From: Nocardia sp. BMG111209
GTDB taxonomy: Bacteria > Actinomycetota > Actinomycetes > Mycobacteriales > Mycobacteriaceae
Length of the DNA stretch: 64,000 nt
Assembly: GCF_000381925.1 (NCBI RefSeq)
Contig: NZ_KB907309.1
Span: 1,178,001 to 1,242,000 of the forward strand
Direction of reading: 5' to 3'
Shown here: piece after piece, positions 2,417 through 31,569 of the stretch
Layout: every line of letters starts with the position of its first letter
How positions within the stretch are numbered: position 1 is the first letter of the stretch
The notes under the pieces: model-generated
Told to the model about the DNA's origin: nothing
What the model saw: the letters and a program-made list of their open reading frames with translations, nothing else
The model's database searches: none
Translations under genes and position numbers: made by a program

Positions 2417-2883
2417 CCGCCACCACCACCCGATAGCTGCACCCGCCCGCCAATCCGCCACCCCACCCACGGCTACCCCCGGGCGACCGCCTGCCCACGA
2501 TTTGCGAGCCCCCGCGCCCGCCGACATCCGCCTGCCGCATCCCCATCCGCGCCGCGCTCGCATCCCGCCCGCCGCACCACGACGCCACTTCTTCAGGCAG
2601 GACCTCGGCCCGAACAGTCCACGCGTGTCCCGAACAGGCCACGGCTCCGGAAGCTGATGCGAATCGGCACCGTCGAGCGATATCTAAAGGTATCTAGCCC
2701 AGAAACTAGATCAACTTAGATATCCATCACGACGCCGGACAAGCGAATGCCCGACACCCGAACCACCAGTTGCCATCAATTTGATCATCATGCTGTAAAG
2801 ATTGCCTACCGCAGGACTGATTTGGTGAGCACATGGGTAACTCCCCGGGTAACTCCCACCAGAGCGGCAAGGAGGTGGGACCT
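2417..2883. other. 467-bp intergenic region with AT-rich dyad
   Basis: No gene is supported here. The first 220 bp are C-rich and unremarkable. From 2675 the base composition becomes clearly AT-rich, with the nested dyad at 2679-2724, a smaller palindrome ATCAATTTGAT at 2775-2785, and finally the perfect Shine-Dalgarno AAGGAGGTG at 2869-2877 for the hydrolase gene. Confidence 0.6.
2679..2724. promoter_or_regulatory. nested AT-rich operator-like dyad
   Basis: The outer arms GATATCTAA (2679-2687) and TTAGATATC (2716-2724) are perfect inverted copies. The inner arms ATCTAG (2692-2697) and CTAGAT (2706-2711) are also exact, and both are centred on the same point. In such GC-rich DNA this is a striking regulator-binding candidate, TetR-like in shape, about 160 bp upstream of the hydrolase start. 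No regulator gene lies next to it. Confidence 0.55.
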
Positions 2884-3096
2884 GTGACCATCGGTCGTGG
2901 CTCCGGCTTGTATGGCCGGAAACCCGGGGAGGCGGTCGGGGTGGGACCTGTGACCGTCAGCCGTGGCTCAGGCTTGTACGGCCGGATACGCGGGGAGGCG
3001 GACCGTCGGACGCATGGGGCAGTGGACCGGGTAGGGCATATGACCGGCGGTCGTGGATCCGATCGGTATGGCCGAAACCGCGGGGAGGCGGTCCGG
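2875..3096 (+). repeat. three copies of a 66-bp repeat at the hydrolase start
   Basis: Copies begin at 2875, 2941 and 3031. The first two are exactly 66 bp (22 codons) apart; the third is displaced by an extra 24 bp. Each copy begins with a GTGGGACCTGTGACC-like segment followed by a Gly/Arg-coding stretch and a GGGGAGGCGG-like end. Because 66 is a multiple of three, the repeats stay in frame and encode the pattern G-P-V-T-x-x-R-G-S-G-L-Y-G-R. The first copy contains the Shine-Dalgarno end and the GTG start, so the unit duplicates a translation start region. Confidence 0.8.
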
Positions 3097-8908: not shown

Positions 8909-10063
8909 CTACCTTTCCGTGACCTCCGGTGTCGCCGGCGTACCGGTGCCGCGACCGGCGCGTCCACCGGCCAGCGCCGCCGCGGCGATGGTGATGAGGA
9001 CCCCGAGCATGATCGCCGCACCCTCTCCGGCTACCAGGACGTGCGCCTGTGTGCCGATCGTGACCGCGGCCACCGGCACCCCGATCTGCGCGGCGGCCAG
9101 CGTCGCGAACGCGATCGGCTGACCGGACACCCGCATCGCCGCATGCGCCAGCACCGCGGCCGCGCCGAGCGCCAGACCGAGCAGGATCAGTCGCGGATGA
9201 TGCCCGAACTCCCGCAGACTCAGCCGCGCACCGAGCCAGACGAAGAACAACGGCGCGAGGAAGCCGTCACTGATCGCGAACAGCTGCTTGGCCACCCGGC
9301 GCGGCTCGCCGACCCCGGCCACGGCGAGTCCCGTGGCGAAGCCCGCGATCATCACCGACACATGGGTGCGGGTGGCCAGCGCCACCAGGCCGAACAGCAG
9401 CGCCAGACTGATCCGCAGCTCGAGTGCGAACTTGCGGCGCTGCGACACCTCGTGCGCTCGATGCCGCCATCCGGAACGCTCCAGGTAGCGCAGCACCAGA
9501 TAGATCACCACCGCCCCCGCCGTGACCGCGAGCGCGCCGAGCGCGGTGCGCACCACGGAACCGGTATCGATCACCAGCGGCAGGGCCACCGTGCACACGG
9601 TGTCGGCCACCGCGACCTGCGCGGTCAGCTCCAGGACCGAATTACCCGACAGCCCGGCGGAATCGAGGATCGGCAGGATCAGCGCGGCCGAGGAGGAGGC
9701 GATCAGCACCGCGTACATCGCACCGTGTCCGGTCCCGAACCAGTGCGCGATCACATATCCGGCGGCGGCCGCGAGGACGCCGACCCCCGCGGCGCGCAGC
9801 AGGCCCGGGGCCAGCGCCGACCGCACCGACCGATTCATCGGCACGTGGGTGCCCGCCACGAACATCACCAGCGCGAAACCCATGTCGGCGAGGAACGCGA
9901 ACACCGGATCGTCGGGATGCAGTACGCCGAAACCGGTGGTACCGAACAGGATTCCGGTCAGCAGCTCACCGACGATGACCGGGACGTGCCAATTCGCCCG
10001 CCAGGCCAGCAGCGGTCCGGCCAGGCCCAGTACCAGCACGAGTGCCAGGGTCGAGAATGTCAC
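8909..10063 (-). CDS. cation:proton antiporter, CPA2/KefB type, 384 aa
   Basis: About twelve hydrophobic helices cover nearly the whole protein, in the Na/H exchanger fold (PF00999). Near the N-terminus LLTGILFGTTGFGVLHP is the family signature, and the middle AAAGYVIAHWFGTGHGAMYAVLIASSSAALILPIL corresponds to the ion-binding region. It lacks the C-terminal TrkA-N domain of full KefB proteins, as short actinobacterial members do. It probably exchanges Na+ or K+ for H+ across the cytoplasmic membrane. The ATG lies six bases after the ParB-like gene, so it is the last gene of the PKS-FAAL transcript or is carried along with it; a role in the product pathway is not evident. Confidence 0.85.
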   Translation of the reverse strand: MTFSTLALVLVLGLAGPLLAWRANWHVPVIVGELLTGILFGTTGFGVLHPDDPVFAFLADMGFALVMFVAGTHVPMNRSVRSALAPGLLRAAGVGVLAAAAGYVIAHWFGTGHGAMYAVLIASSSAALILPILDSAGLSGNSVLELTAQVAVADTVCTVALPLVIDTGSVVRTALGALAVTAGAVVIYLVLRYLERSGWRHRAHEVSQRRKFALELRISLALLFGLVALATRTHVSVMIAGFATGLAVAGVGEPRRVAKQLFAISDGFLAPLFFVWLGARLSLREFGHHPRLILLGLALGAAAVLAHAAMRVSGQPIAFATLAAAQIGVPVAAVTIGTQAHVLVAGEGAAIMLGVLITIAAAALAGGRAGRGTGTPATPEVTER

Positions 10064-10641: not shown

Positions 10642-12351
10642 TCAGAACGACTGCCGGATCGGCGGCTCGGTGATCCGGGTCAGCGCTCCGGCCCGGTACC
10701 GGGCCCGGCACTCCCCGCGGCGCAATTTACCGCTGGAGGTCTTCGGGATCTGACCGCGCGGCACCAGCATCACATCGGCCGGCGCGATGTCGTGCGCCGC
10801 CGCCACCGCGGCCCCGATCCGGCGGGCCACCGTGACCGGATCGGCCAGGCGGTCGTCGAGTTCGGCGACCAGCACCAGGGTTTCGTGATCGCCGTGATCG
10901 ATCCCGAAGGCGGCGATATGGCCCGCGCGCACCTCGGGGGAGACGTGCGCGGCCGTCGCCTCGATATCGGCGGGATAGTGGTTGCGGCCCGCGACGATGA
11001 TCATGTCCTTCAGCCGCCCGGCCGGAAACAGCTGCCCGTCGTGCACGAAACCCAGATCGCCGGTGCGCAACCAGCGTTCGTGGCTGTCCGGCAGCCGGCC
11101 GCCGAATACGTCGGCACTGGCCTGGGGCCGGCGGAAGTAGCCGGCGCTCACATTCGGCCCCGCCACCCACACCTCGCCGACCTCACCGTCGGCCACCACC
11201 CGGTGCCGCAGTGGATCCACGATCCGGATCTGCTGTCCCGCCGCGGTCCCGCAGCCGACCAGTGCGACACCGTGGGCCGGATCGCGCGCGAGGACCGCGC
11301 GACCCGCCGCCAGTTCGCTGCGATCGAACTCCTCCACCAGCGGCGGTTCCGCCGTCGCCGCGAACGCGACCGGCAGCGTCGCCTCGGCCAGCCCGTAACC
11401 CGGCGTATGCGCGCTGTGCCGGAAACCGTAGGGGGCGAACATCTTCGTGAAGGCCGCGAGGGATTCGGCGCGGATCGGCTCGGCCCCGTTGATCAGCAGT
11501 TCCAGGGCGGACAGGTCCAGCCCCTCGCGTTCGGCGGCGGTGGTCGCCGTGACCGCCAGGGCCAGACCGAAATTGGGCCCGGCGGTGGTACCGGCGCGAT
11601 AGTCGCTGCACGCCCGCAACCAGCGGATCGGCCGCTTGGCGAATTCGGCCGGTGCCAGCGTGACCGCGAGCACGCCGGTGTAGAGCGGCAGCGACAGCGC
11701 CAGGATCAGGCCCATATCGTGGAAGAACGGCAACCAGGTGACGATCGGCCGCACCGCCACCGGCGGCATCCCGGCCCGCAACTGCTCCAGCGCGGCGGTG
11801 TGGTTCGCATGCGAGATCTCCACTCCGGACGGCGCTTTCGTCGAGCCCGAGGTGTACTGCAGATAGGCCGGATGGTCACCGACCGGATCCAGCACCGGCG
11901 CGGCCCCGGCCGCTCCTGGGGTCACGACCAGCACCCGCCCCACTGCGGCCCCGCTGTCCCGGGTGCGTTGCTCCGCCCCCGCGCAGACCAGACTCACCGC
12001 CGGATCGGCATCCGCCAGCACCGTGATCAGCCGATCCATGTTCCGGTGCGGCGACACCGGGAACAACGGCACCGCCACCCGGGCACTGTAGAGGCAGGCG
12101 AGGAAGGCGATCGCATAGTCCGGCCCGTGCTCACACAGGATCGCCACGCGCGCACCGGGTTCGGTGAGTGCTCGGAGTTCGGCGCCGAGAGCCCCTGCGG
12201 CGGAATGCAATTCACCGCAGGTCAGGGTATGCGGCAGGCAGTCCGTGCCGCGATAGGTCAAGGTGATCAGAGCCGGGTCGTCCGGCCGGACGCGAGCTCG
12301 CTCGGAGACGGCCACGGCCAGCGGGGCCGCGGATGTGCCGGAGACTGTCAC
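10642..12351 (-). CDS. fatty acyl-AMP ligase (FAAL, FadD32-like), 569 aa
   Basis: GTG 12351 has GGAG five bases before it and starts eight bases after the PKS stop. This is an adenylate-forming enzyme that activates a fatty acid as acyl-AMP and hands it to an acyl carrier protein. The ATP-binding loop YLQYTSGSTKAPSGV is the FAAL version of the motif, and FFHDMG, GPNFG and PGYGLAEATLPVAF are typical FAAL segments. The C-terminal domain has RTGDLGF, AGRLKDMIIVAGRNHYPADIE and the catalytic Lys region IPKTSSGKLRR. Together with the upstream PKS and ACP it probably supplies the fatty acyl starter unit. Confidence 0.93.
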   Translation of the reverse strand: MTVSGTSAAPLAVAVSERARVRPDDPALITLTYRGTDCLPHTLTCGELHSAAGALGAELRALTEPGARVAILCEHGPDYAIAFLACLYSARVAVPLFPVSPHRNMDRLITVLADADPAVSLVCAGAEQRTRDSGAAVGRVLVVTPGAAGAAPVLDPVGDHPAYLQYTSGSTKAPSGVEISHANHTAALEQLRAGMPPVAVRPIVTWLPFFHDMGLILALSLPLYTGVLAVTLAPAEFAKRPIRWLRACSDYRAGTTAGPNFGLALAVTATTAAEREGLDLSALELLINGAEPIRAESLAAFTKMFAPYGFRHSAHTPGYGLAEATLPVAFAATAEPPLVEEFDRSELAAGRAVLARDPAHGVALVGCGTAAGQQIRIVDPLRHRVVADGEVGEVWVAGPNVSAGYFRRPQASADVFGGRLPDSHERWLRTGDLGFVHDGQLFPAGRLKDMIIVAGRNHYPADIEATAAHVSPEVRAGHIAAFGIDHGDHETLVLVAELDDRLADPVTVARRIGAAVAAAHDIAPADVMLVPRGQIPKTSSGKLRRGECRARYRAGALTRITEPPIRQSF

Positions 12352-12359
12352 GAGAACTC

Positions 12360-15300
12360 CTAGCGGACCTGCCGGGCGGATAGATGCGCCGCGAGCGCGA
12401 CGATGGTCGGATATTCGAAGATTTCGGCGGTCCCGATCCGCCGGCCCAGTCGGGCCTCCAGGGCCCGCCGCAACTCGATGGCCAGCAGCGATGTCAGCCC
12501 GAGCGCGACGAAATCGCCCGCCGGGTCGATACTCTCGGCCCGCCGGTCCAAGGTCTCCGCCAGCGCGGACCGGATGATCGGCACCATCGCCTCGGCCCGC
12601 GCCGCCACGTCCGCAGGATCCGGATCGCTCGCGGCCCCGGAATCGAAGGCGCCCGGCCGATTTCGATCCTCGGCACCGTCCCGATCCGTGAGACCACCGA
12701 CCAGCGACACCACATTCCCGTTGCCCCGCCACACTTTCCGTGCTCCGGTCGTCGTGGTGCTCTCGCCCGGATCGGACCTGGTCGTCGGGCTGCCGGACCC
12801 GGTCGACGGGCCGCCGGGCTCGGCCGTCGGGTCGCCTGGCCCGGTCGACGTGCTGGGTACAGCTGTCGGGCTGCCGGACCCAGCTGTCGGGCCGCCGGAC
12901 CCGAGCGTCCGGTCGCTGGTCCCGGCCGTCGGGTCGCTGGACCTGCGTGTCGGATCGGTCGACCGGGCTGCCGGGTCGCCGGGCCCAGGTGTCGGGTGGG
13001 TCGACCAGGCTGCCGGGTCGTCGGACCCGGGTGTTGGGGCGGTCGACCGGGACGCCGGGTCGCTGGGCCCGGGTGTCGGGTGGGTCGACCAGGCGGTCGG
13101 GTCGCTGGGCCCGGATGTTGGGTGGGTCGACCAGGCGGTCGGGTCGCTGGGCCTGGATGTCGGGTGGGTCGACCAGGCGGTCGGGTCGCTGGGCCCGGAT
13201 GTCGGGTGGGTCGACCAGGCGGCCGGGTCGCTGGACCCGGGTGCCGGATCGGTCGACCAGGCGGCCGAGTCGTCGGACGCTGTTGCCGGGTCGCTGGACC
13301 TGGATGTTGGGAGGCCGGGCTCGGCTGTCGGGCCGCCGGACCCGATCGTCGGGCCGCCGGCCTCGGCCGTCCGGTCCGACTCGGTGGTCGGGTTGCCGGA
13401 CCCTGTCATCGGGTCGCTGTGCTCGGCTATTGGGCGGACGGTCCTGGATGTCGGTGCACCGGTTGTTGCGCGGCGGCTGGGTCCGGGTGTTGTGCTGTTG
13501 GATCCGGATGCCGGGTTGCGAAGACCGGCTCTCGGGCCGCCGGGGTCCGTCGATCCGGATCGGTCGGCGGCCGGGTGAGTGCCTGTGCGCCGGGGCGGAA
13601 CCAGTGGGGCGAGGATCGATTCCATCGGTGGCAGGGCCGGACGTGATGTGTCCGAATCGGTTTCGCGGGCCGGGGTGGGTGGCGGCGGATATCCGAGGGC
13701 CGTGCGGACTCGGTCGGCAAGGGGGGAACGGTCGGTGGTGGGGGAGTAGTCCAGGGCCAGTACGAACGGTTCGGGTTGGCCGAGTACCGCGGAGAGTACG
13801 GCGGCGCCGCGGGTCGCATCGAACGGGACCACGCCGGCGCGGCGCAGGTGGGCGGCACCGCCGGCGGCCGCGGACAGGCCGGATTCCCAACTGCCCCAAG
13901 CGATGCTGATGACGCGGCGGTCGGTGCGGGCTCGGGCGAGTGCGTCCACGGCGGCGTTGGCGGCGGCGTAGGCCGCCTGGCCGGGGGCACCGAGGGCGCC
14001 GGTGGCCGAGGAGTACAGCAGGGCGAAATCGATCGGGTCGTCGGCGGTGAGGTCGAGCAGATCGGCGGCGGCGAGCAGTTTCGGGGCGAACACCGCCAGC
14101 AGCGATTCGCCGGTGACGGCGCCGAATTCGGCATCGCGCAGCACACCGGCCGAGTGCACGACACCTTGGATGGTGGAACCGCATTCGCGGATGTCCTCGA
14201 GTGCGTTGGCCAGATCGGTGCGGTCGGCGACATCGCAACGGACCACGACGATCCGGTCCTCCAGGCCGTCCAGCAGCGGGGGCAGCGGACGCGGGGTCCG
14301 GGTCAGGACGACGACGTCGTGCGCGCCGGCCGCGAGCAGCCAGCGTACGGTGGGCGCGCCCAGCGCGCCGAGTCCGCCGGTCACCACGTAGGTGCCCTCG
14401 GGACGGATCGCGGGTGGCGTGGCGGTGGGTGCGGGGACGAAGCGCCGGACATCGATCGCGGCGCCGTCGATCCGGACCTCCTCGGGCCCGGCCGGTTCCA
14501 GCACCAGGTCCGGTAGCGGGCCGGGGCGGTCGCCCGAGGTCCAGACCAGCCGGATCGGCCGACCGGACTCCGTCTGCAACGACCGGACCAGTCCCGCCAC
14601 CGCCTGTTGATCGATCGCCGACCGATCCCGCAGCACCACGGTCAGCGCCGCCGTCGCATCGCTGTCGTACACCCGTTGCAGCAGATCCAGTGCGCGCACG
14701 ACCAGGCCCGGGACCGCGTCGGCGGGACCGGCCTCCTCGTCCGGCCACACCAGGACGACGGCGGTCCGGTCGGTGCGGGTCGCGAGGACGGAAGCCACGA
14801 TCGGGGCCGCCTCGCCGGGTTCGCGGGCCACCCGCTCGGCGGCGAGGCGGCGGTGCAGTGCCCGGGTCAAGCGCACCGCCAGGGCCGACTCACCGACGAT
14901 CAGTACCCGTTCGACCAGCGAAAGTGGTTGTGCGGCGGCCCAGTCCGCGGCCCGGGTGGGCAGCCAGGCCTCGTGCCGCAGCACGGCGGCCGGTGGCTCG
15001 GCCCGCGCGATGCGGGTGATGGGTACCGTCGGCACGGTCGGGGCGAGCAGCAGGTCGATGCCGCCCACCCGGCCGTCGCCGGACGCCGTGGGTTCGGCCG
15101 CGATCGGCGCGGGCCGTGGCGGGTCGGCGGGCAGCGCCGCGAAGCCGATCCGGATTCCCGACAGCGCGGCGGCGGGCGCACCGTACTGATCCAGCGCGAT
15201 GACCTCGCAGATCAGCCCGGCGGGACCGGTCTCGCGCACGAAGGCGTGTGCCTCGGTCAGCAGCAGATCGGGCGCGCCTGCCAGCCACACCGACGCGATA

Positions 15301-18300
15301 CCCACCGGCAACGGCAGCACCCCGTCCGGCAACAGTTCCAGCGCCGCCGCCGCGATCACCTGGAGGCAGCCGTCGAATACCGCGACGTCGAATCGCACCT
15401 GCCCGAAAAGTCCGATCGCACTGCGGTTTCCGGTGGACACGGCGCGCAGCGTGCGGAATCCGGGGCCGTACTGCAGCCGCCGCTCGCGCAGCGCCGCATA
15501 GAACGCCTCGATATCGAGCGGCCGCAGTGCGCGTCCCGCACCCCGATGCGCGTCGACCGTCCGCATCCACCCGACGATCTCGCCGGGCGCCGGTGGTGGT
15601 GCGGACCGGCCGGAGGCCAGCGGTACCGAGCCGAGTACCTCCAGCCGTCCGGCCGACTCCCGGTAGCGGACCTCGTCGAGCGCGGCCACATCGGTGCGCT
15701 CGTGCACGGTGAAATCAACGATGCGCGAAGCGGTCTCGGGCCCGAGCCGGAACAGCTGGCGCAACCAGAAGGTGACCGGCACGGTCGCGACACCGTCGAC
15801 CACGTGATCGCGCAGCGGCACCGGATCGTCCGGCAGCGGTAGCGGTTCCGCGCCGGTGAGCAGCGGGAAACTCCGATGCCGCCAGATCCGTTGCGGCGCC
15901 GAGCCGGTGAAGCCACCGGCCGCCGACCAGTCCACCGATCCCCCGGCCACGAACAGCCGCCCGACACCGTCCAGGAACGCACTCGCCTCGGCGTCCCGAT
16001 CGGCCACGACGACAGTCGACCGCGCGAACTCCGGCCGATCCCGCACGGCGGGCGCCAGCACCGGATGCGGCGCGAGCTCGATCACCGTCGAGATGTCCTC
16101 GGCCACCGCGGTTTCCAGCGCCGCCGCCAATTCGACGGTGCCGCAGGCGTTCTCCACCCAATAACCGGCGTCCGGCGCCTGCGTGAGCGGTTCGCCGCGA
16201 CGAGTGGTGGAGTACAGCGGCAACTGTGGCGCCCGCGCCCGGAGCTCCTTCAGCTCGGCCGCCAGATCCGCCGCCACCGCGCGTACCTGCGGACTGTGCG
16301 CGGCGAAGTCCACGGCGATGTACCGCGCGAACATCTGCCGCCGCTGCGCGCGCCGCACGACGGTCTCGACGTACCGGGCCGACCCGGAGACGACCACCGC
16401 GCGCGGCCCGTTGATCGCCGCGACGGCGACCTCGGACCGCAACGGTTCCACCATTCGCGCCGCCTCGTAGGGTGTCGCCTCCAGTACCGCCATCGCCCCG
16501 TGCCCATCGAGCCGGGCCAGCATCCGGCTGCGCGCCACCACCACTCGCGCACCCTCGTCCGGCGACAACGCTCCGCCCACCACCGCCGCGGCGATCTCGC
16601 CGAGACTGTGCCCCGCCACCGCATCCGGATGAATTCCCCAGGCCCGCAACAACTCCGCGAGCGCGATCTGATAGACGAACAGGGCCGGCTGTACCGCCGC
16701 GGTCCCGTCCAGACTGTGCGCGAACCCGTATCGCGGCGTCCACACCCGTGGCCCACCGGCCCGCACCACCGCATCCGCGGCATCCGCCACCGCCCGCGCG
16801 AAGACGGGATACCGCGCAGCCAGCGCCCGCCCCATCCGCGCATGCTGCCCACCCTGCCCCGAGAACAGGAACAACACCCGCCCCGGTCGCCGCGCCCGCC
16901 CCGGCCCGATCACCACCCCCGCCGGATCGAACCGCCCCACCCCTTCGAACCCGTCCGCGATGACCGCGCCACGCGGCGCCGGTCGACCAGCATCCTGCCC
17001 GGCCGCGCCGTCGTGCCCGGCCGCGCCGTCGTGCCCGGCCGCGCCGTCCTGCCCGGCCGCGCTGTCGTGTCCGGCCGCGTTGTCCTGCCTGCCCGCGCTG
17101 TCGTGCCCGGCCGCATCGTCGTGTCCGGCTGTGCTGTCGTGTCCGGCCGCGTCATCGAGCCCAGCCGCATGTTCGTGCTCGGCTACGTTGTCGTGCCCGG
17201 CCGCGCCGTCGAGCTCGGAAACATGCGGTATCCGTGCTGTTTCGGGCTTGCCGCCGATCTCCGATGCAGCGCCGACGGACGTCGGATCGGCAGACAGGGC
17301 GGAATTGCCCTGCGCCGCAGAATCTGTGGACTCGTCCTCGCTCGTCTCCAGCGCGGTGGGTTCCGCCGACGAGTACTCCGTTTCGAGCTTGTCGGCCGAA
17401 CCGGACCCGGCGCTCACCTCGGACGAGACAGGGCTGTGCCGGATCGAATCCGTCCGCTCATCGCCCGGCGAGTCGGGGCCGCTCTCGGAGTCGGATCGGT
17501 GCGAAGGTAGGACGACGGATTCCGTCCCACCGGTGGTGTCCGGTTCCTGTTCCGCAAGCTCCGTAATGGATGCATCGCCGCTCGAGCCGAGCCCTTTCGT
17601 GGTCTGGAGTGGGCGGCGGCCGTCCGGTTCCGGGACGAGGGTGCTGCCGGTCGCGGCCGGCGCCGGACTGTCGCTGTGCTGCCGAACGGCCGTAGTAGCG
17701 CCGATGTTCGGAGCGGAGCGTACCTTTTCAGCGGTCTGCGAGGGGGTCTGACCCGCCGGTGTCCCGGTATTTGCGGTACTCGATTCGTCGTCGCGCAGGC
17801 TCGCTTCCGGCTCCGCCCCGGGCCCGGCGTGGTCGGATGACATCGAATCCGGCTCGGAGACAATCGGTCTCGACGATGATCGCCGCACATCGGATTCCGC
17901 TCGGGTCTCTCCGTCGCGGGTGGAGTTCGCCCCATCACCCGATGGTGCGGACGGACCCGCAACCGGACGAACCCCGGGCGGCGAGTGCCGGACCGGGGGA
18001 TTGTTATGCGCGCGCGGACTCGACAACGAGATACCGCGCTGATGATCGAGGGGTCCGGCACCCGGAGCAATCGCACCCGAGGATTGCGATGATTCTTCGG
18101 AAGCGATTGCAGAAGAGGGGCTTTCCACTGCCTCGATAGGTGGGGGCCCGGAACGGTCCCAGTCCGGCCCGCCGAGGCTATCGTTATCGGTTGCCCTCAG
18201 GGACGGGGGCACGGATTGGTCCGAGCCCGGTTCGTCGTCGCTATCCGCCGCTCCGAGGGGTGAAGTCCAGGATTGTTGCGGATCCGGTCCGTCGTCGAAG

Positions 18301-20012
18301 CTGTTGCTATCCGCCGCCCCGACGGGTGAAGTCCCGGGCTGGTTCGAGCCCGGTCCGCCGTAGCCGCCGTTATCTCCTGCCCCGACAGGTGAAGTCTCGG
18401 ATCGATCCGAGCCCGCCCCGTCGAAACCCTCGACCGCCCGAATATCACCAGCGGCCACTGAGTTTCGATCCGCCGGATTCTCGGCGGCGCTCGCCAGGTC
18501 GCGCAGCAGTGCGATGGCCTCGTCCCGATCGGCAGCGCGGATCGCGGCGCGCACCGGCTGGGGCAGCAGTCGTGCTGCCGCGGCCGCGAATTCGCGTAGC
18601 GGCGTGCCGGATTCGGTGAGGTCCGTGGCCCAGCGTGCGGCGAGTTCGCGCAGTTCGGTCTCGTCGCGGCCGGATATCGGGATCAGCACGGGCGGGTCGG
18701 TGTCGCGGAGGGCCGGTTGCGGCACGCCGCGCAGGACGGCGTGCGCGTTGGTTCCGCCGAAGCCGAACGAGCTGACTCCCGCGTACCGGTCGGTGGGCGG
18801 GATATCCCAGGCGATGGGTGCGGTCGGTACGCGCAGGCCCCGTTCGGCCAGCCGCAGCAGTGGATTCGCCTCCCGAAAATTGACGGTGGGAGCGACGATT
18901 CCGTGATGGATCGACAGCGCGGCCTTGGCGACCCCGGTGACACCGGCGGCGGCCTCCAGATGGCCGAGATTCGATTTCACCGAGCCGATCCAGGCGGGCG
19001 ACTCGGGACGCGGGCCGAGTACCGCTGCCAGCGCACCGATCTCGACCGCATCGCCGAGTGGCGTTCCGGTGCCGTGACATTCGAAGTAGTCGCCGAGGGC
19101 CGGGTCGGCGCCGGCCCGCCGCCAGGCGGTCCGGATCACCTGCTGCTGCGCGGTACCGTTCGGCGCGTACAGCCCGTTCGAGCGGCCGTCGGAACCGACT
19201 GCGGCGCCGAGGATCTCGGCGTAGGCGCGGTTGCCCTCGCGCAGCGCGTCCGCACTGCGTTGCAACACCAGGACGGTGCAACCCTCGCCACGGGTGTAGC
19301 CGTCGGCGGCGGCGTCGAAGGGTTTGCAGCGGCCGTCGGGTGCCAGGAATCCACCGGTGTCGAGATAATCGGTGGGGTGGGGGAGCAGGGTGAGGTTCAC
19401 GCCGCCGACGATCGCCAGTGTGGTGGAACCGTCGGCCAGCAACCGCGGTGCCAGGTCGACCGCGGCCAGTGACGCGGAACAGGCGCTGTCGAGCACCAGA
19501 CTCGGGCCGTGCAGATCCAGTACGTAGGACAGGCGGTTGGCGATGATGCTCAGCGCCGAACCGGTCAGTGCGTACGGCGCGTCCCGGCCGCCGCGGCCGA
19601 TCACCACGGCCCCGTGGTCGTAGGTGGCCGCGCCGAACAGCACGGCGGTGTCGGAACCGCGGAGGCGATAACCGATTCCGGCGTCGTCGATCGCCTCGAC
19701 CGCCACCTCCAGTGCGAGGCGTTGTTGCGGATCCATCGCTGCCGCTTCACGATCGGTGATCGCGAACCATTCGCTGTCGAAGGCGTCGACCCGGTCCAGA
19801 TAGCCCGCGCGCCGGAGGCCGGAGCGGCCGGGTGGGGGGAATCCGGTGGCGTCGCGGCCCTCGGTCAGCAGCCGCCAGAATTGTTGTGCGCCGGACGCAC
19901 CCGGCACCCGGCAGCCGATGCCGATGATCGAGATCGGCTCGCGTTCACCCGGACGCGGACCGTCGAGGGTCGGCCCGTCGCGGTCCGCGGGCGGCAGCGT
20001 GGCTGCGGTCAT
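12360..20012 (-). CDS. single-module type I polyketide synthase (KS-AT-DH-KR-ACP) with repeat-built linkers, 2550 aa
   Basis: The ATG at 20012 overlaps the ACP gene stop as ATGA. Domains in order: ketosynthase (about 25-450; Cys178 in DSACSASL, plus ECHGTGTPLGD and KSNLGHLEAAAG); a disordered insert of about 520 residues; acyltransferase (about 1040-1350; Ser1136 in GHSLGE); dehydratase (about 1380-1650; H1403 in HVVDGVATVP, acid motif DGCLQ); ketoreductase (about 1870-2110; TGGLGALG, Tyr2015); a second insert of about 330 residues; and a terminal ACP (Ser2508 in LGLTSL). All catalytic residues are present. No enoylreductase or thioesterase is seen. The AT motif VDFAAHS is closer to methylmalonyl-type than malonyl-type enzymes, a weak guess. 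It probably extends a fatty acyl chain delivered by the FAAL and ACP. Confidence 0.95.
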   Translation of the reverse strand: MTAATLPPADRDGPTLDGPRPGEREPISIIGIGCRVPGASGAQQFWRLLTEGRDATGFPPPGRSGLRRAGYLDRVDAFDSEWFAITDREAAAMDPQQRLALEVAVEAIDDAGIGYRLRGSDTAVLFGAATYDHGAVVIGRGGRDAPYALTGSALSIIANRLSYVLDLHGPSLVLDSACSASLAAVDLAPRLLADGSTTLAIVGGVNLTLLPHPTDYLDTGGFLAPDGRCKPFDAAADGYTRGEGCTVLVLQRSADALREGNRAYAEILGAAVGSDGRSNGLYAPNGTAQQQVIRTAWRRAGADPALGDYFECHGTGTPLGDAVEIGALAAVLGPRPESPAWIGSVKSNLGHLEAAAGVTGVAKAALSIHHGIVAPTVNFREANPLLRLAERGLRVPTAPIAWDIPPTDRYAGVSSFGFGGTNAHAVLRGVPQPALRDTDPPVLIPISGRDETELRELAARWATDLTESGTPLREFAAAAARLLPQPVRAAIRAADRDEAIALLRDLASAAENPADRNSVAAGDIRAVEGFDGAGSDRSETSPVGAGDNGGYGGPGSNQPGTSPVGAADSNSFDDGPDPQQSWTSPLGAADSDDEPGSDQSVPPSLRATDNDSLGGPDWDRSGPPPIEAVESPSSAIASEESSQSSGAIAPGAGPLDHQRGISLSSPRAHNNPPVRHSPPGVRPVAGPSAPSGDGANSTRDGETRAESDVRRSSSRPIVSEPDSMSSDHAGPGAEPEASLRDDESSTANTGTPAGQTPSQTAEKVRSAPNIGATTAVRQHSDSPAPAATGSTLVPEPDGRRPLQTTKGLGSSGDASITELAEQEPDTTGGTESVVLPSHRSDSESGPDSPGDERTDSIRHSPVSSEVSAGSGSADKLETEYSSAEPTALETSEDESTDSAAQGNSALSADPTSVGAASEIGGKPETARIPHVSELDGAAGHDNVAEHEHAAGLDDAAGHDSTAGHDDAAGHDSAGRQDNAAGHDSAAGQDGAAGHDGAAGHDGAAGQDAGRPAPRGAVIADGFEGVGRFDPAGVVIGPGRARRPGRVLFLFSGQGGQHARMGRALAARYPVFARAVADAADAVVRAGGPRVWTPRYGFAHSLDGTAAVQPALFVYQIALAELLRAWGIHPDAVAGHSLGEIAAAVVGGALSPDEGARVVVARSRMLARLDGHGAMAVLEATPYEAARMVEPLRSEVAVAAINGPRAVVVSGSARYVETVVRRAQRRQMFARYIAVDFAAHSPQVRAVAADLAAELKELRARAPQLPLYSTTRRGEPLTQAPDAGYWVENACGTVELAAALETAVAEDISTVIELAPHPVLAPAVRDRPEFARSTVVVADRDAEASAFLDGVGRLFVAGGSVDWSAAGGFTGSAPQRIWRHRSFPLLTGAEPLPLPDDPVPLRDHVVDGVATVPVTFWLRQLFRLGPETASRIVDFTVHERTDVAALDEVRYRESAGRLEVLGSVPLASGRSAPPPAPGEIVGWMRTVDAHRGAGRALRPLDIEAFYAALRERRLQYGPGFRTLRAVSTGNRSAIGLFGQVRFDVAVFDGCLQVIAAAALELLPDGVLPLPVGIASVWLAGAPDLLLTEAHAFVRETGPAGLICEVIALDQYGAPAAALSGIRIGFAALPADPPRPAPIAAEPTASGDGRVGGIDLLLAPTVPTVPITRIARAEPPAAVLRHEAWLPTRAADWAAAQPLSLVERVLIVGESALAVRLTRALHRRLAAERVAREPGEAAPIVASVLATRTDRTAVVLVWPDEEAGPADAVPGLVVRALDLLQRVYDSDATAALTVVLRDRSAIDQQAVAGLVRSLQTESGRPIRLVWTSGDRPGPLPDLVLEPAGPEEVRIDGAAIDVRRFVPAPTATPPAIRPEGTYVVTGGLGALGAPTVRWLLAAGAHDVVVLTRTPRPLPPLLDGLEDRIVVVRCDVADRTDLANALEDIRECGSTIQGVVHSAGVLRDAEFGAVTGESLLAVFAPKLLAAADLLDLTADDPIDFALLYSSATGALGAPGQAAYAAANAAVDALARARTDRRVISIAWGSWESGLSAAAGGAAHLRRAGVVPFDATRGAAVLSAVLGQPEPFVLALDYSPTTDRSPLADRVRTALGYPPPPTPARETDSDTSRPALPPMESILAPLVPPRRTGTHPAADRSGSTDPGGPRAGLRNPASGSNSTTPGPSRRATTGAPTSRTVRPIAEHSDPMTGSGNPTTESDRTAEAGGPTIGSGGPTAEPGLPTSRSSDPATASDDSAAWSTDPAPGSSDPAAWSTHPTSGPSDPTAWSTHPTSRPSDPTAWSTHPTSGPSDPTAWSTHPTPGPSDPASRSTAPTPGSDDPAAWSTHPTPGPGDPAARSTDPTRRSSDPTAGTSDRTLGSGGPTAGSGSPTAVPSTSTGPGDPTAEPGGPSTGSGSPTTRSDPGESTTTTGARKVWRGNGNVVSLVGGLTDRDGAEDRNRPGAFDSGAASDPDPADVAARAEAMVPIIRSALAETLDRRAESIDPAGDFVALGLTSLLAIELRRALEARLGRRIGTAEIFEYPTIVALAAHLSARQVR
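12959..13294. repeat. 42-bp tandem repeat in the KR-ACP linker of the PKS
   Basis: The word TCGACC recurs at 12959, 13001, 13043, 13085, 13127, 13169, 13211 and 13253, exactly 42 bp apart eight times. The four middle units are nearly identical. On the coding strand each unit gives 14 residues of the type D-P-T-A-W-S-T-H-P-T-S-G-P-S. More decayed copies extend on both sides (about 12780-13440). The exact 14-codon period keeps the frame and is the mark of recent tandem duplication, so copy number may vary between strains. Confidence 0.9.
16992..17207. repeat. 18-bp tandem repeat in the KS-AT linker of the PKS
   Basis: Twelve consecutive 18-bp units (16992, 17010, 17028 and so on to 17190) follow the plus-strand pattern GTCGTGCCCGGCCGCGCC with scattered changes. 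On the coding strand they give six-residue units G/D-A-A-G-H-D. Units near the AT end are most alike and those further away are more diverged. The period again preserves the reading frame. Confidence 0.9.
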
Positions 20013-20320: not shown

Positions 20321-20510
20321 GTCGGTTCACCCCTCGTATGCTCCGGCGCCGCCGGTCGATCCTGGCGTGGCCGTGCTCCGTTGCCGCCACCGGCCCCGCG
20401 GACATCCGGATCCGGTGGCACGCGCCCCGCGTCCCTCCGCGATTATGCCGAGAACCGGCCGCCCGGAGAAGAGTTTCCCGCACAGGCGGCGATCGCATAC
20501 CGTGGGCGCC

Positions 20511-21491
20511 GTGACCGAAGCCATCGAGGACAACGTGGCCGATCCGGCCGATCCGACCACGGGCCGCCCGGGCGTGCTGGGCACGCTGGTCCGTTGCTGT
20601 GGTGCGCTGGCCGCGACCCCCGGCCGGTTGCTGCGCCCTCGCCGCCCCGATCATCGTCTGCTCGCGAGCCTGACGCCGGTACCGGCGCCGCCCGCTCGCG
20701 CCACCGTCGCGCTACGCACGCTGCCGCAGAGCCGGACCAGCGCTCCGCTGGCGATCGTCGCCGAGGGGGTGCGGAGCCTGCGCACGGTCTGGACCGTCTA
20801 CGGTGCCTTCCTGGTCGAACATCCGAAGGCGCGATTCCTGGTCGATCCGGGCATGTGCGCGAATGTGCACGAGCGGGTGCTGCCGGGGCAGCCGTTCCCG
20901 CTGGGGCTGCTGGTATCGCCGGACAAGCCGGTCCTCGGGCTCGGCGACGCGCTCGCGGACGCCGAACTCGGGCTCACCGACATCGATTTCACGCTGGCCA
21001 CCCACCTGCACTGGGATCATGTGTCCGGCCTGCTGGAGTTGCCGGATTCGGTCGAATTACGGGTCACCGGAACGGAATACGAGTGGGCGATGGCCGGATC
21101 GCACGCGCCCTACGGGGTGGTCCGCGCACCGCTGCACGATCGCAAGATCTCGCCGCTCACGCTCGACGGGCCGCCGGTGCTCACCTTCGAGGCCAGTCAC
21201 GATCTGTTCGGCGACGGTTCGGTACTGCTGGTCGACCTGGCCGGGCACACCCCGGGCAGTATCGGGGTGCTGCTCGCGGTCGACGACGGCACCCGCGTGC
21301 TGCTCGCCGGTGACGCGGTCTGGAACTCCTTGCAGATCGAGCTGATCCGGGAGAAGGCCCCGATGCCCGGTCAGCTGTTCGATGCCGACCGGGCGAAGAC
21401 CTTCGAGACCATCCACCGGCTGCACGCGCTGCCGTCCGGTATCGAGGTGATCGCCGCCCACGACTACGACGCGATGCTGTCGCGCGCCTAG
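20511..21491 (+). CDS. metallo-beta-lactamase-fold hydrolase, 326 aa
   Basis: GTG 20511 (VTEAIEDNVADP) is the likely start. The dinuclear metal site is seen as H165-L-H167-W-D169-H170, followed by downstream ligands in GHTPGS, AGDAVW and the terminal AAHDYD. The fold is that of lactonases, glyoxalase-II-like thioesterases and phosphorylcholine esterases. About 90 N-terminal residues before the fold are Arg/Pro-rich. It diverges from the ACP-PKS-FAAL operon with 190 bp between them. Since the PKS has no thioesterase, this enzyme is a candidate for product release or trimming, purely by position. Confidence 0.85.
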   Translation: MTEAIEDNVADPADPTTGRPGVLGTLVRCCGALAATPGRLLRPRRPDHRLLASLTPVPAPPARATVALRTLPQSRTSAPLAIVAEGVRSLRTVWTVYGAFLVEHPKARFLVDPGMCANVHERVLPGQPFPLGLLVSPDKPVLGLGDALADAELGLTDIDFTLATHLHWDHVSGLLELPDSVELRVTGTEYEWAMAGSHAPYGVVRAPLHDRKISPLTLDGPPVLTFEASHDLFGDGSVLLVDLAGHTPGSIGVLLAVDDGTRVLLAGDAVWNSLQIELIREKAPMPGQLFDADRAKTFETIHRLHALPSGIEVIAAHDYDAMLSRA

Positions 21492-21532: not shown

Positions 21533-22825
<1,293 letters not shown>

Positions 22826-28449: not shown

Positions 28450-29058
28450 ATGACATTCAGGATCACCTCGCAGCATCCGCACGCGATTCTGCTGCGCCGG
28501 TTGTTCCTCGCGGTGGTGACCGGCAGTTTCGTCTTCCTGGTGCCGTGGGTCGGCTACCTGTCCTTCAGCCTGCCCGCCCATCACGAGGTCCGGCAGTGGG
28601 ATATCGCCTGGGTGGGCTTCGACTGCATCCTGGTCGCGGCGGTCGGGGTGACCGCGCTGCTGGCCTGGCTGCGCCGGCAGATCTTCATCCCGTGGGCGAT
28701 CATCACCGCGACGCTGCTGGTCTGCGACGCCTGGTTCGACATCGTCCTGGACTGGAACACCTCGGACCTGCTGTTGTCCGTGCTGACCGCCGTATTCGGA
28801 GAACTGCCGCTGGCCGCGCTGCTGTACTACACCGCGCGGCGGCTGGTGCGGTTGTCGTTGCAGATGGCCTGGGTGCTGACCGGGCATACCGAACCGCCGC
28901 CGCCGGTGACGCAGTTCCGCATGATCGACGACGACAGCTGGTCGCCACCGCCGGGGTCCGGTTCGCAGCTGCCGCCGGGGTCCGGTTCGGTGTTACCGCC
29001 GGGGCCTGGCTCGGTGTTGCCGCCCGGGCCCGGCTCGCAGCTGCCGCCCGGTCACTGA
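28450..29058 (+). CDS. four-helix membrane protein with Pro/Gly repeat tail, 202 aa
   Basis: ATG 28450 has GGGAGG before it. Four hydrophobic helices are seen at about 18-38, 52-75, 80-105 and 112-135, connected by short loops (SFSLPAHHEVRQWD and DIVLDWNTSDL). The last 35 residues are repeats of PPGSGSQL. The family is not recognised with certainty; the helical part resembles small actinobacterial integral membrane proteins of unknown role. It follows the SGNH hydrolase by 55 bp in the same direction. Confidence 0.78.
   Translation: MTFRITSQHPHAILLRRLFLAVVTGSFVFLVPWVGYLSFSLPAHHEVRQWDIAWVGFDCILVAAVGVTALLAWLRRQIFIPWAIITATLLVCDAWFDIVLDWNTSDLLLSVLTAVFGELPLAALLYYTARRLVRLSLQMAWVLTGHTEPPPPVTQFRMIDDDSWSPPPGSGSQLPPGSGSVLPPGPGSVLPPGPGSQLPPGH
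28948..29055 (+). repeat. 24-bp coding repeats at the C-terminus of the membrane protein
   Basis: Four 24-bp units give the eight-residue motif P-P-G-S/P-G-S-Q/V-L, followed by a partial PPGH before the stop. Third-position changes between copies show that they have been under coding constraint. Confidence 0.85.
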
Positions 29059-31005: not shown

Positions 31006-31569
31006 ATGTTGATCGGTGAACTGGCCGCACGCACCGGCACCACCACCCGGGCGCTGCGCTTCTACGAGGAACGAGGTCTGCTGGTCAGCGGTCGCACCTC
31101 GGCGGGATATCGGACCTTCGAGGAGGACGCGGTGCGACGGGTGCGCAACATCCGGGAGCTGTTGTGGCTCGGGTTCACCCTCGACGATGTGCTCGCCTTC
31201 CTGCCGTACCTGGATCACGAAGTGCCCGAGGTGTTTCCGTACGAACCCCGCTGCGTCACCGGCTACGCCCGGGTCGGTCCGCCACGGGTGGCCGAACTGA
31301 ACCGCCGCATCGCGGCGCTCACCGAACTGCGCGACCGTCTCCTCACCCGAATGCCCTGGCTGACCGACGATGTGCCGTGCAGTCGTACCCGGGCGGAGCG
31401 GGGCAGTCGCGGTGGGGCGATGGACGGCCATATCGGGACGATGGCGGACATCCGCACAGAGGCGGTGGCGGACATCCGCGCTGAGGGGGTAGCGGATATC
31501 CGTACCGAGGTGGTGCCGGGCAACCGCGCTGAGAAAGTGCCGCTGCGCTACCGAAGCGCAGCCGGGTGA
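31006..31569 (+). CDS. MerR-family transcriptional regulator, 187 aa
   Basis: ATG 31006 follows AAAGGAG. The N-terminal winged helix is textbook MerR: MLIGELAARTGTTTRALRFYEERGLL, then RTSAGYRTFEEDAVRRVRNIRELLWLGFTLDDV. A dimerisation helix follows (ELNRRIAALTELRDRLLTRM). Single Cys residues occur in EPRCVTGY and DVPCSRT and could take part in sensing. The last 45 residues are repetitive (ADIRTEAV-type units). It lies 25 bp after the oxidoreductase and very probably activates the promoter at 29940, which would make the operon self-regulating. Confidence 0.92.
   Translation: MLIGELAARTGTTTRALRFYEERGLLVSGRTSAGYRTFEEDAVRRVRNIRELLWLGFTLDDVLAFLPYLDHEVPEVFPYEPRCVTGYARVGPPRVAELNRRIAALTELRDRLLTRMPWLTDDVPCSRTRAERGSRGGAMDGHIGTMADIRTEAVADIRAEGVADIRTEVVPGNRAEKVPLRYRSAAG
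31444..31515 (+). repeat. three 24-bp units in the MerR gene
   Basis: Units at 31444, 31468 and 31492 follow the pattern GCGGACATCCGCACAGAGGC plus four more bases and encode ADIRTEAV, ADIRAEGV and ADIRTEVV. They lie in the tail beyond the conserved MerR fold and may be a strain-specific addition. Confidence 0.8.

Follow-up and report, generated by a model that had tools for sequence, protein, structure and literature searches.

A single-module PKS and its gene neighbours

The window, a stretch of 64,000 nucleotides from Nocardia sp. BMG111209, carries on its minus strand one uninterrupted reading frame of 2,550 amino acids, whose sequence marks the product as most likely a working single-module PKS. 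Along the chain, Pfam matches follow each other in the order KS, KAsynt_C_assoc, AT, PS-DH, KR and PP-binding, the KS-AT-DH-KR-ACP layout of a one-module type I modular PKS on a single chain. The genes of the locus are these:

8909-10063, minus strand: sodium/hydrogen exchanger-like gene, on the other side (PF00999; in 8 of 12 loci)
10642-12351, minus strand: fatty acyl-AMP ligase-like (FAAL) gene (PF00501, PF23024; in 11 of 12 loci)
12360-20012, minus strand: single-module type I PKS, KS-AT-DH-KR-ACP, 2,550 amino acids (open frame, Pfam, motifs)
20367-21491, plus strand: divergent gene for a metallo-beta-lactamase-fold protein (PF00753; in 11 of 12 loci)
21533-22732, minus strand: nitronate monooxygenase/FabK-like gene (PF03060; in 11 of 12 loci)

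A motif scan found the catalytic motifs of the PKS, which we take to mark its active sites: the KS Cys motif from residue 175, with HGTGT at 313 and SNLGH at 347; GHSLGE of the AT at 1134; HxxxGxxxxP of the DH at 1403; YAAAN of the KR at 2015; and GLTSL of the ACP at 2505. Domains and long linkers occupy the following positions, with pN/pS from three comparisons among the window, N. aurantia and Nocardia sp. alder85J:

18492-19955, minus strand: KS and LD region, residues 20-507 (homology boundaries; pN/pS 0.21-0.23, three comparisons)
16917-18491, minus strand: KS/LD-to-AT linker, residues 508-1032, 525 amino acids (homology boundaries)
17544-17741, minus strand: alignable island within that linker, residues 758-823, common to the three nearest species
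15858-16916, minus strand: AT domain, residues 1033-1385 (Pfam, homology; pN/pS 0.13-0.27)
14913-15845, minus strand: DH region, residues 1390-1700, with the PS-DH match at 1492-1621 (Pfam, homology; pN/pS 0.24-0.36)
13677-14915, minus strand: structural and catalytic KR, residues 1700-2112 (Pfam, homology; pN/pS 0.18-0.21)
12615-13676, minus strand: KR-to-ACP linker, predicted disordered, residues 2113-2466, 354 amino acids (homology boundaries; AlphaFold2)
12363-12614, minus strand: ACP, residues 2467-2550, with Pfam PP-binding at 2480-2544 (Pfam; pN/pS 0.17-0.39)

The FAAL gene probably starts at a GTG at 12351, 8 bp past the PKS stop and with GGAG ahead of it, a reading for which the 569-residue FAAL protein of N. 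aurantia was used. Our family searches took this gene as 10642-12363, four codons too long and with a first codon that is no start; the best NCBIfam match was PRK05850 fatty-acid--AMP ligase, below its cut-off. We surveyed the neighbourhood in 12 loci from other Nocardia genomes, and since the neighbouring genes recur across them, the PKS copies are orthologues. A fatty acyl-AMP ligase gene adjoins the PKS in the window and in 11 of the 12 loci, the arrangement of a FAAL-primed PKS, and the PKS is probably primed by it. The likely reaction would extend a FAAL-activated acyl chain once and include beta reduction and dehydration, and the metallo-beta-lactamase-fold protein may possibly have a role in product release.

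Mycobacterial Pks2/MAS-type synthases carry KS, AT, DH, KR and ACP parts and so share these with the window PKS, which differs in having no ER domain among its Pfam matches. Its score against the Pks2/MAS-type family (NCBIfam NF041183) is 591.5 against a cut-off of 2400, and against Pks13 (NF040607) 576 bits against a cut-off of 2100; it falls outside both families. According to passages of PMC7413640, mono-modular PKS clusters (GCF 1, 11 and 14) are common in Nocardia and are thought to modify fatty acid precursors. The window PKS resembles these in being mono-modular, which is a likeness by kind, and the terms 'linker' and 'tandem repeat' occur 0 times in the text of that paper. A passage of PMC12153302 reports that no Nocardia cluster is deposited in the PKS-I class of MIBiG.

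Tandem arrays and predicted disorder in the linkers

The first-pass annotation of this DNA had put about 520 residues between KS and AT and about 330 between KR and ACP, and homology boundaries bear this out at 525 and 354 amino acids. Each linker holds a tandem array, which TRF places in frame with the PKS coding sequence:

16996-17211, minus strand: 18-bp array, 12 degenerate copies, units AAGHDx (TRF, unit tables)
12930-13272, minus strand: 42-bp (14-aa) array, 8.2 copies, 87% matches (TRF, unit tables)

Tandem units in both linkers are above chance: the best TRF score is 494 in the KR-ACP linker against a maximum of 69 in 200 codon shuffles, and 255 in the KS-AT linker against a maximum of 60, again in 200. 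Arrays cover 869 of the 7,653 bp of the PKS gene, compared with 7,361 of 400,000 bp of background; the top score in this 400-kb background is 479, and that of the top array in the window 476. The 42-bp array, which can also be read at a period of 126 over 12888-13332, had been described as eight exact units. The array is there, but its units are not exact, since in register over 12959-13294 none of the 28 pairs is identical (mean pairwise identity 0.82, range 0.69-0.98). The twelve 18-bp units had been counted correctly, TRF giving 12.0 copies; 3 of their 66 pairs are identical and their mean pairwise identity is 0.77. Degenerate units near KS, put at about 18 residues, can be seen by eye just after that domain but measure roughly 19-22, and the statement that all periods are multiples of three holds for both main arrays but not for a weak 23-bp pair at 16877-16923 (2.0 copies, score 59). 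N. aurantia and Nocardia sp. alder85J, the two nearest relatives among the matches listed (core identity to the window PKS 0.91 and 0.86), lack both the 42-bp and the 18-bp array; in N. aurantia the KR-ACP stretch carries a different and weaker array, of 48/24 bp.

The first reading had also called these linkers disordered, and the KR-ACP linker does come out unfolded. An AlphaFold2 model of residues 1700-2550, made from 24 sequences, gives a 10-residue mean pLDDT of 83-97 in the KR and 80-94 in the ACP, whereas the linker lies below 50 at residues 2123-2130 and 2134-2459, with about 32 overall. The KR-ACP linker is thus confidently predicted to be unfolded between well-predicted domains. The KS-AT linker, at about 27, lies within a model of residues 1-1150 that is poor throughout (mean 42), so its low value weighs little; its composition score falls on the disordered side. 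In the pooled inserts of the relatives described below, order-promoting residues make up 15% against 30% elsewhere in the proteins, and P, S, T and G together 43% against 27% in the remainder. A FoldIndex-like score is nevertheless below zero (disordered) in just 78 of 132 inserts, which counts against a reading of the inserts as disordered tethers.

All six frames were also compared over 5,220 codons, those of 21 inserts taken from 10 proteins. No stop interrupts the real frame, whereas the five others have 25-67. In the real frame the mean share of order-promoting residues, 0.134, is the lowest of the six on average, and the mean net charge is -0.04, while of the others four are basic (0.13-0.19) and one is nearly neutral (0.02). 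Two details count against the disordered-tether reading: the real frame is the lowest in order-promoting residues for just 12 of the 21 inserts, and three other frames are more hydrophilic than its Kyte-Doolittle mean of -0.77. Being stop-free and low in order-promoting residues, the linkers look like a translated frame whose composition is loosely limited. We reject the idea that they are hidden non-coding DNA or the result of a frameshift, given the 0 stops in 21 inserts; a frameshift is also contradicted by the conserved stretches on either side of the linker, which share one frame. Codon usage in this GC-rich genome contributes to the composition differences between frames.

Length and sequence change across Nocardia

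Relatives were taken as the best 120 of 7,965 protein matches, 102 of them Nocardia-named and 15 without an organism name. Three multimodular proteins of Streptomyces or Actinophytocola and the fragment P0119 were dropped, leaving 116 relatives (101 Nocardia-named), or 117 proteins with the window PKS, and inserts were measured by alignment to the short orthologue P0031 (1,688 aa). In these alignments spacer length changes far faster than core length: the standard deviation (SD) across the 117 proteins is 211 aa for the whole protein and 25 aa for the core. An insert of at least 40 aa is present in 71 of the 117, at two or more sites in 39, and absent from the other 46. Seven sites, defined after inspecting the insert distribution, hold 19,178 of the 19,343 inserted residues (gaps of at least 25): the KS loop, the LD loop, LD-AT, AT-DH, DH-KR, the structural KR loop and KR-ACP. 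By alignment, then, nearly all spacers lie either between domains or in the LD loop, in frame and with clade-specific sequence. Inserts of at least 40 aa occur in the LD loop of 34 of the 117 proteins, at DH-KR in 33, at AT-DH in 23 and at KR-ACP in 13, most relatives having no long insert at the last of these.

Among 112 proteins the LD-to-AT stretch ranges from 1 to 579 residues (median 6) and the KR-to-ACP stretch from 1 to 354 (median 12.5), the latter range leaving out P0071, misplaced by a stray KR match. The window's own KR-ACP linker, at 354 aa, is the longest in two measurements, that of the 112 proteins and that among the matches listed. With inserts scored at a threshold of 40 aa, Fitch counting on a 112-tip tree of the conserved domains needs at least 11 changes in the LD loop, 6 at DH-KR, 4 at KR-ACP, 3 at LD-AT, 2 each at AT-DH and in the KR loop, and 1 in the KS loop. 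The junctions that are lengthened differ from clade to clade, as do the repeat periods, and the inserts of other clades that we inspected have no evident common sequence. Of 112 inserts of at least 60 aa, 59 are more periodic than all 100 of their shuffles and 53 have no clear periodicity; tandem repetition can thus be seen in some inserts but not in all. The ACP is undetectable in P0083, P0110, P0111, P0114 and P0120.

These aligned lengths exclude identical, fixed linkers in all relatives, and linker length differs between species and probably, as had been foreseen for copy number, between strains. Among pairs of proteins with core identity of at least 0.97, differences reach 170 aa; the median total difference is 87 aa in nine pairs with an insert of at least 40 aa and 0 in six pairs without one. 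Three proteins named N. amikacinitolerans, with core identities of 0.975-0.987, carry 313, 340 and 434 inserted residues in the LD loop and have 80, 73 and 129 aa, respectively, between KR and ACP. Between the closest two of them the steps are 27 and 7 aa, matching the periods of 27 and 7 in those inserts.

Substitutions were followed in the same three comparisons that gave the values for the domains. With pN/pS of 0.13-0.39, the catalytic domains are, on this measure, under purifying selection. In the alignable linker residues 655-850, pN/pS is 0.83, 0.92 and 0.74, which suggests a linker that evolves almost freely, yet remains free of stops and low in order-promoting residues; where pS in the linker is 0.5-0.7, the aligned parts are probably not true homologues and were left uninterpreted. 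Nine 42-bp units compared among themselves give pS and pN of 0.19 each, and the 18-bp units give pS 0.38 and pN 0.20, a mild constraint that counts against free evolution. Residues 2113-2150, just after the KR, are intermediate (0.38-0.46) and look conserved, as does the core of the island at 758-823. The idea that residues 758-826 are a DNA element is not supported, and this stretch would be at most a short conserved motif: residues 804-823 have no synonymous change between the window and alder85J but pS of 0.20 and 0.28 against N. aurantia, and the island-core DNA has in the genome one exact match and one place at 3 mismatches. The motifs SSGDAS, from the island, and PPM[ED]SIL each occur in 3 of 121 sequences (the 120 listed matches and the window PKS).

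Other enzymes provide the scale for this variation. According to PMC9210659, Pks13 of M. tuberculosis has non-catalytic linkers as long as 200 residues, along with an insertion that separates KS from LD. Pks13 is a type I PKS like the window PKS, but its length in Nocardia hardly varies: across 118 genomes, 114 full-length frames range from 1698 to 1876 aa with an SD of 33 aa, against 225 aa for 62 stop-to-stop frames of the window-type PKS in the same 118 genomes. A KR query finds a match at E <1e-60 in 74 of these genomes, and 12 frames below 1,600 aa were set aside to give the 62. What surprises is not the minisatellite but one PKS whose junctions mostly vary by hundreds of residues genus-wide, in genomes where Pks13 keeps its length. 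For nine further PKS frames in this genome, caught by a motif filter in 7 of 12 fetched stretches that do not include the Pks13 stretch, internal low-order segments amount to 0-96 aa against 954 in the window PKS; some of these frames are cut by the end of their stretch, and segments well before KS were left uncounted (one of 131 aa in L179, and 129 aa where the window's PKS frame begins). Length variation is smaller in the partner FAAL than in the PKS (SD 40, mean 577, 120 proteins), with 20 of its 25 insert events of at least 25 aa at reference residues 140-159.

The minisatellite as such is not special to the PKS gene. In 400 kb of this genome 74 merged arrays were counted, 53 of them with a period divisible by three, and in 2.0 Mb sampled from 21 Nocardia genomes the same holds for 216 of 287; in-frame minisatellites are thus common in Nocardia. 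Across 20 genomes, leaving out G089, which is absent from the KR match table, the length of the stop-to-stop PKS frame correlates with array density (Spearman 0.45, P 0.048); this falls to 0.25 (P 0.34) once the window and the two relatives nearest to it are taken out, and densities in 11 long-PKS and 9 short-PKS genomes compare at P 0.15. We rejected the idea that the PKS linkers simply reflect a genome-wide repeat load: this correlation is weak, and neither Pks13 nor the nine further PKS frames fit the idea. One PKS would not stand out under mutation pressure alone, so some property of this PKS tolerates or favours expansion.

Origin and role of the spacers

The explanation that we hold best, with moderate confidence, is that the spacers are disordered tethers lengthened by in-frame slippage at tolerant junctions, their sequence and exact length being mostly neutral. 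The motor would be in-frame slippage or unequal exchange of GC-rich minisatellites, which are plentiful in Nocardia genomes, and length changes that are not a multiple of three would be lost because they break the reading frame. A surviving spacer would behave as an entropic string under two demands, no stop codons and few order-promoting residues, with wide freedom in sequence and exact length. Tethering as such, and not a set length of the string, would be what still brings the ACP and AT to their partners. The 42-bp and 18-bp arrays would then be the youngest, lineage-specific layer.

Strings of this kind have precedents. Pyruvate dehydrogenase E2 and the tandem-ACP PUFA synthases carry alanine/proline-rich flexible strings before the carrier domain; the linkers of the window-type PKS differ from these swinging-arm linkers in being hypervariable, at several junctions and mostly not beside the carrier domain. 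Bacterial intragenic minisatellites, or VNTRs, are likewise in-frame tandem units whose copy number differs between strains, but the arrays of the window sit inside a multidomain enzyme, at domain junctions. In the open-licence papers that we searched, we found no PKS described with tandem-repeat interdomain tethers. In PKS engineering, interdomain linkers are usually regarded as delicate and sensitive to length, and evolution appears to have run the opposite experiment across the genus, varying linker lengths hugely while keeping the catalytic domains. If long forms match short ones in activity, linker length would be far more permissive than assumed and the variants would be a ready toolkit; if they differ, repeat number would be a new way to tune a megasynthase.

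The spacers might instead bind a partner, a membrane or each other through short conserved motifs, as a scaffold or condensate, which we consider unlikely. All three nearest species keep the island at 758-823 and the stretch at 2113-2150, inserts also arise in the partner FAAL, most of them at one place, and the pooled inserts are rich in P, S, T and G; all of this would suit such binding. The motifs PPM[ED]SIL and SSGDAS are, however, limited to a clade, the inspected inserts of other clades share no evident sequence, and the genome's one exact match and one place at 3 mismatches for the island-core DNA speak against it as well.

Quite unlikely, in our judgement, is a tuned tether, in which the count of repeats would fix how far the ACP and AT reach or how concentrated they are locally, so that strains shift rate, partner or product. 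The first reading's suggestion that a long tether before the ACP could set the reach of that domain is not supported, most relatives having no long KR-ACP insert (13 of 117 have one). Length does shift quickly between close relatives, its changes recur on the tree at five of the junctions (LD loop, DH-KR, KR-ACP, LD-AT and AT-DH), and the effect is strong in the window-type PKS and absent in Pks13. Tuning fits poorly, though, with differences of up to 170 aa between proteins whose cores are at least 0.97 identical, with lengthening at junctions that differ by clade, several of them away from the ACP, with an alignable linker that is nearly unconstrained, and with the 46 proteins that do without any long insert. 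That the junction minisatellites serve as fast-mutating length dials, giving new rates, partners and lipid products with the catalytic residues untouched, we regard as decidedly improbable.

Long unfolded stretches are targets for proteases, and cutting of these strings could leave KS, AT-DH-KR and ACP to act as separate pieces of a split enzyme. The few relatives without a detectable ACP suggest that a detached ACP may be tolerated, but a split form would not need the frame to stay open through all 21 inserts examined, and we think this very unlikely. Repeats are classic assembly traps, but an assembly error, frameshift or pseudogene is almost certainly not the answer: the genome is assembled into 5 contigs totalling 9.14 Mb, each of the eight 42-bp units differs from all the others, the arrays span at most a few hundred bases, the flanking domains lie in one frame under apparent purifying selection with intact catalytic motifs, and like inserts are present in other assemblies, some on contigs of 7-10 Mb.

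The PKS gene and its relatives across Nocardia

When the KR region of the PKS was used as a query against 118 Nocardia genomes, no match with E below 1e-60 was obtained in 44 of them, so the gene either is patchily distributed in the genus or is too divergent for this threshold. Within the long KS-AT linker there is an island that can be aligned across three species, and residues 804-823 form its core and most conserved portion.

17544-17741, island within the KS-AT linker of the PKS

Among relatives recovered by protein search, P0050 (N. amamiensis) and P0074 (N. gipuzkoensis) carry inserts of 88 and 77 aa, respectively, inside the KS, both with an 11-aa period. A domain search of the proteins found no ACP in P0083, P0110, P0111, P0114, and P0120, which are about 1,590-1,620 aa long.

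Inserts in the FAAL partner

Orthologues of the adjoining fatty acyl-AMP ligase-like gene (FAAL), including P0202, P0209, P0215, P0218, and others, contain inserts, the longest reaching about 190 aa, and most of the orthologue inserts lie at reference residues 140-159. Many insert-bearing orthologues come from species that are, by name, N. abscessus-like, where the PKS may have few inserts.

Repeats outside the PKS

Three further tandem arrays lie in the window, and elsewhere in the strain's genome (G000, contig C1) lies an open frame that runs for 9,640 codons or more.

2874-3001, tandem array, period 66
28948-29048, tandem array, period 24
31442-31527, tandem array, period 24
G000:C1:1351070 to beyond 1380000 (extracted stretches L109:11070-20000 and L110:1-19998), long open frame

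The frame has a WXG100-like N-terminus, SecA-like matches together with one HopA1-family match, and several distinct in-frame minisatellites.
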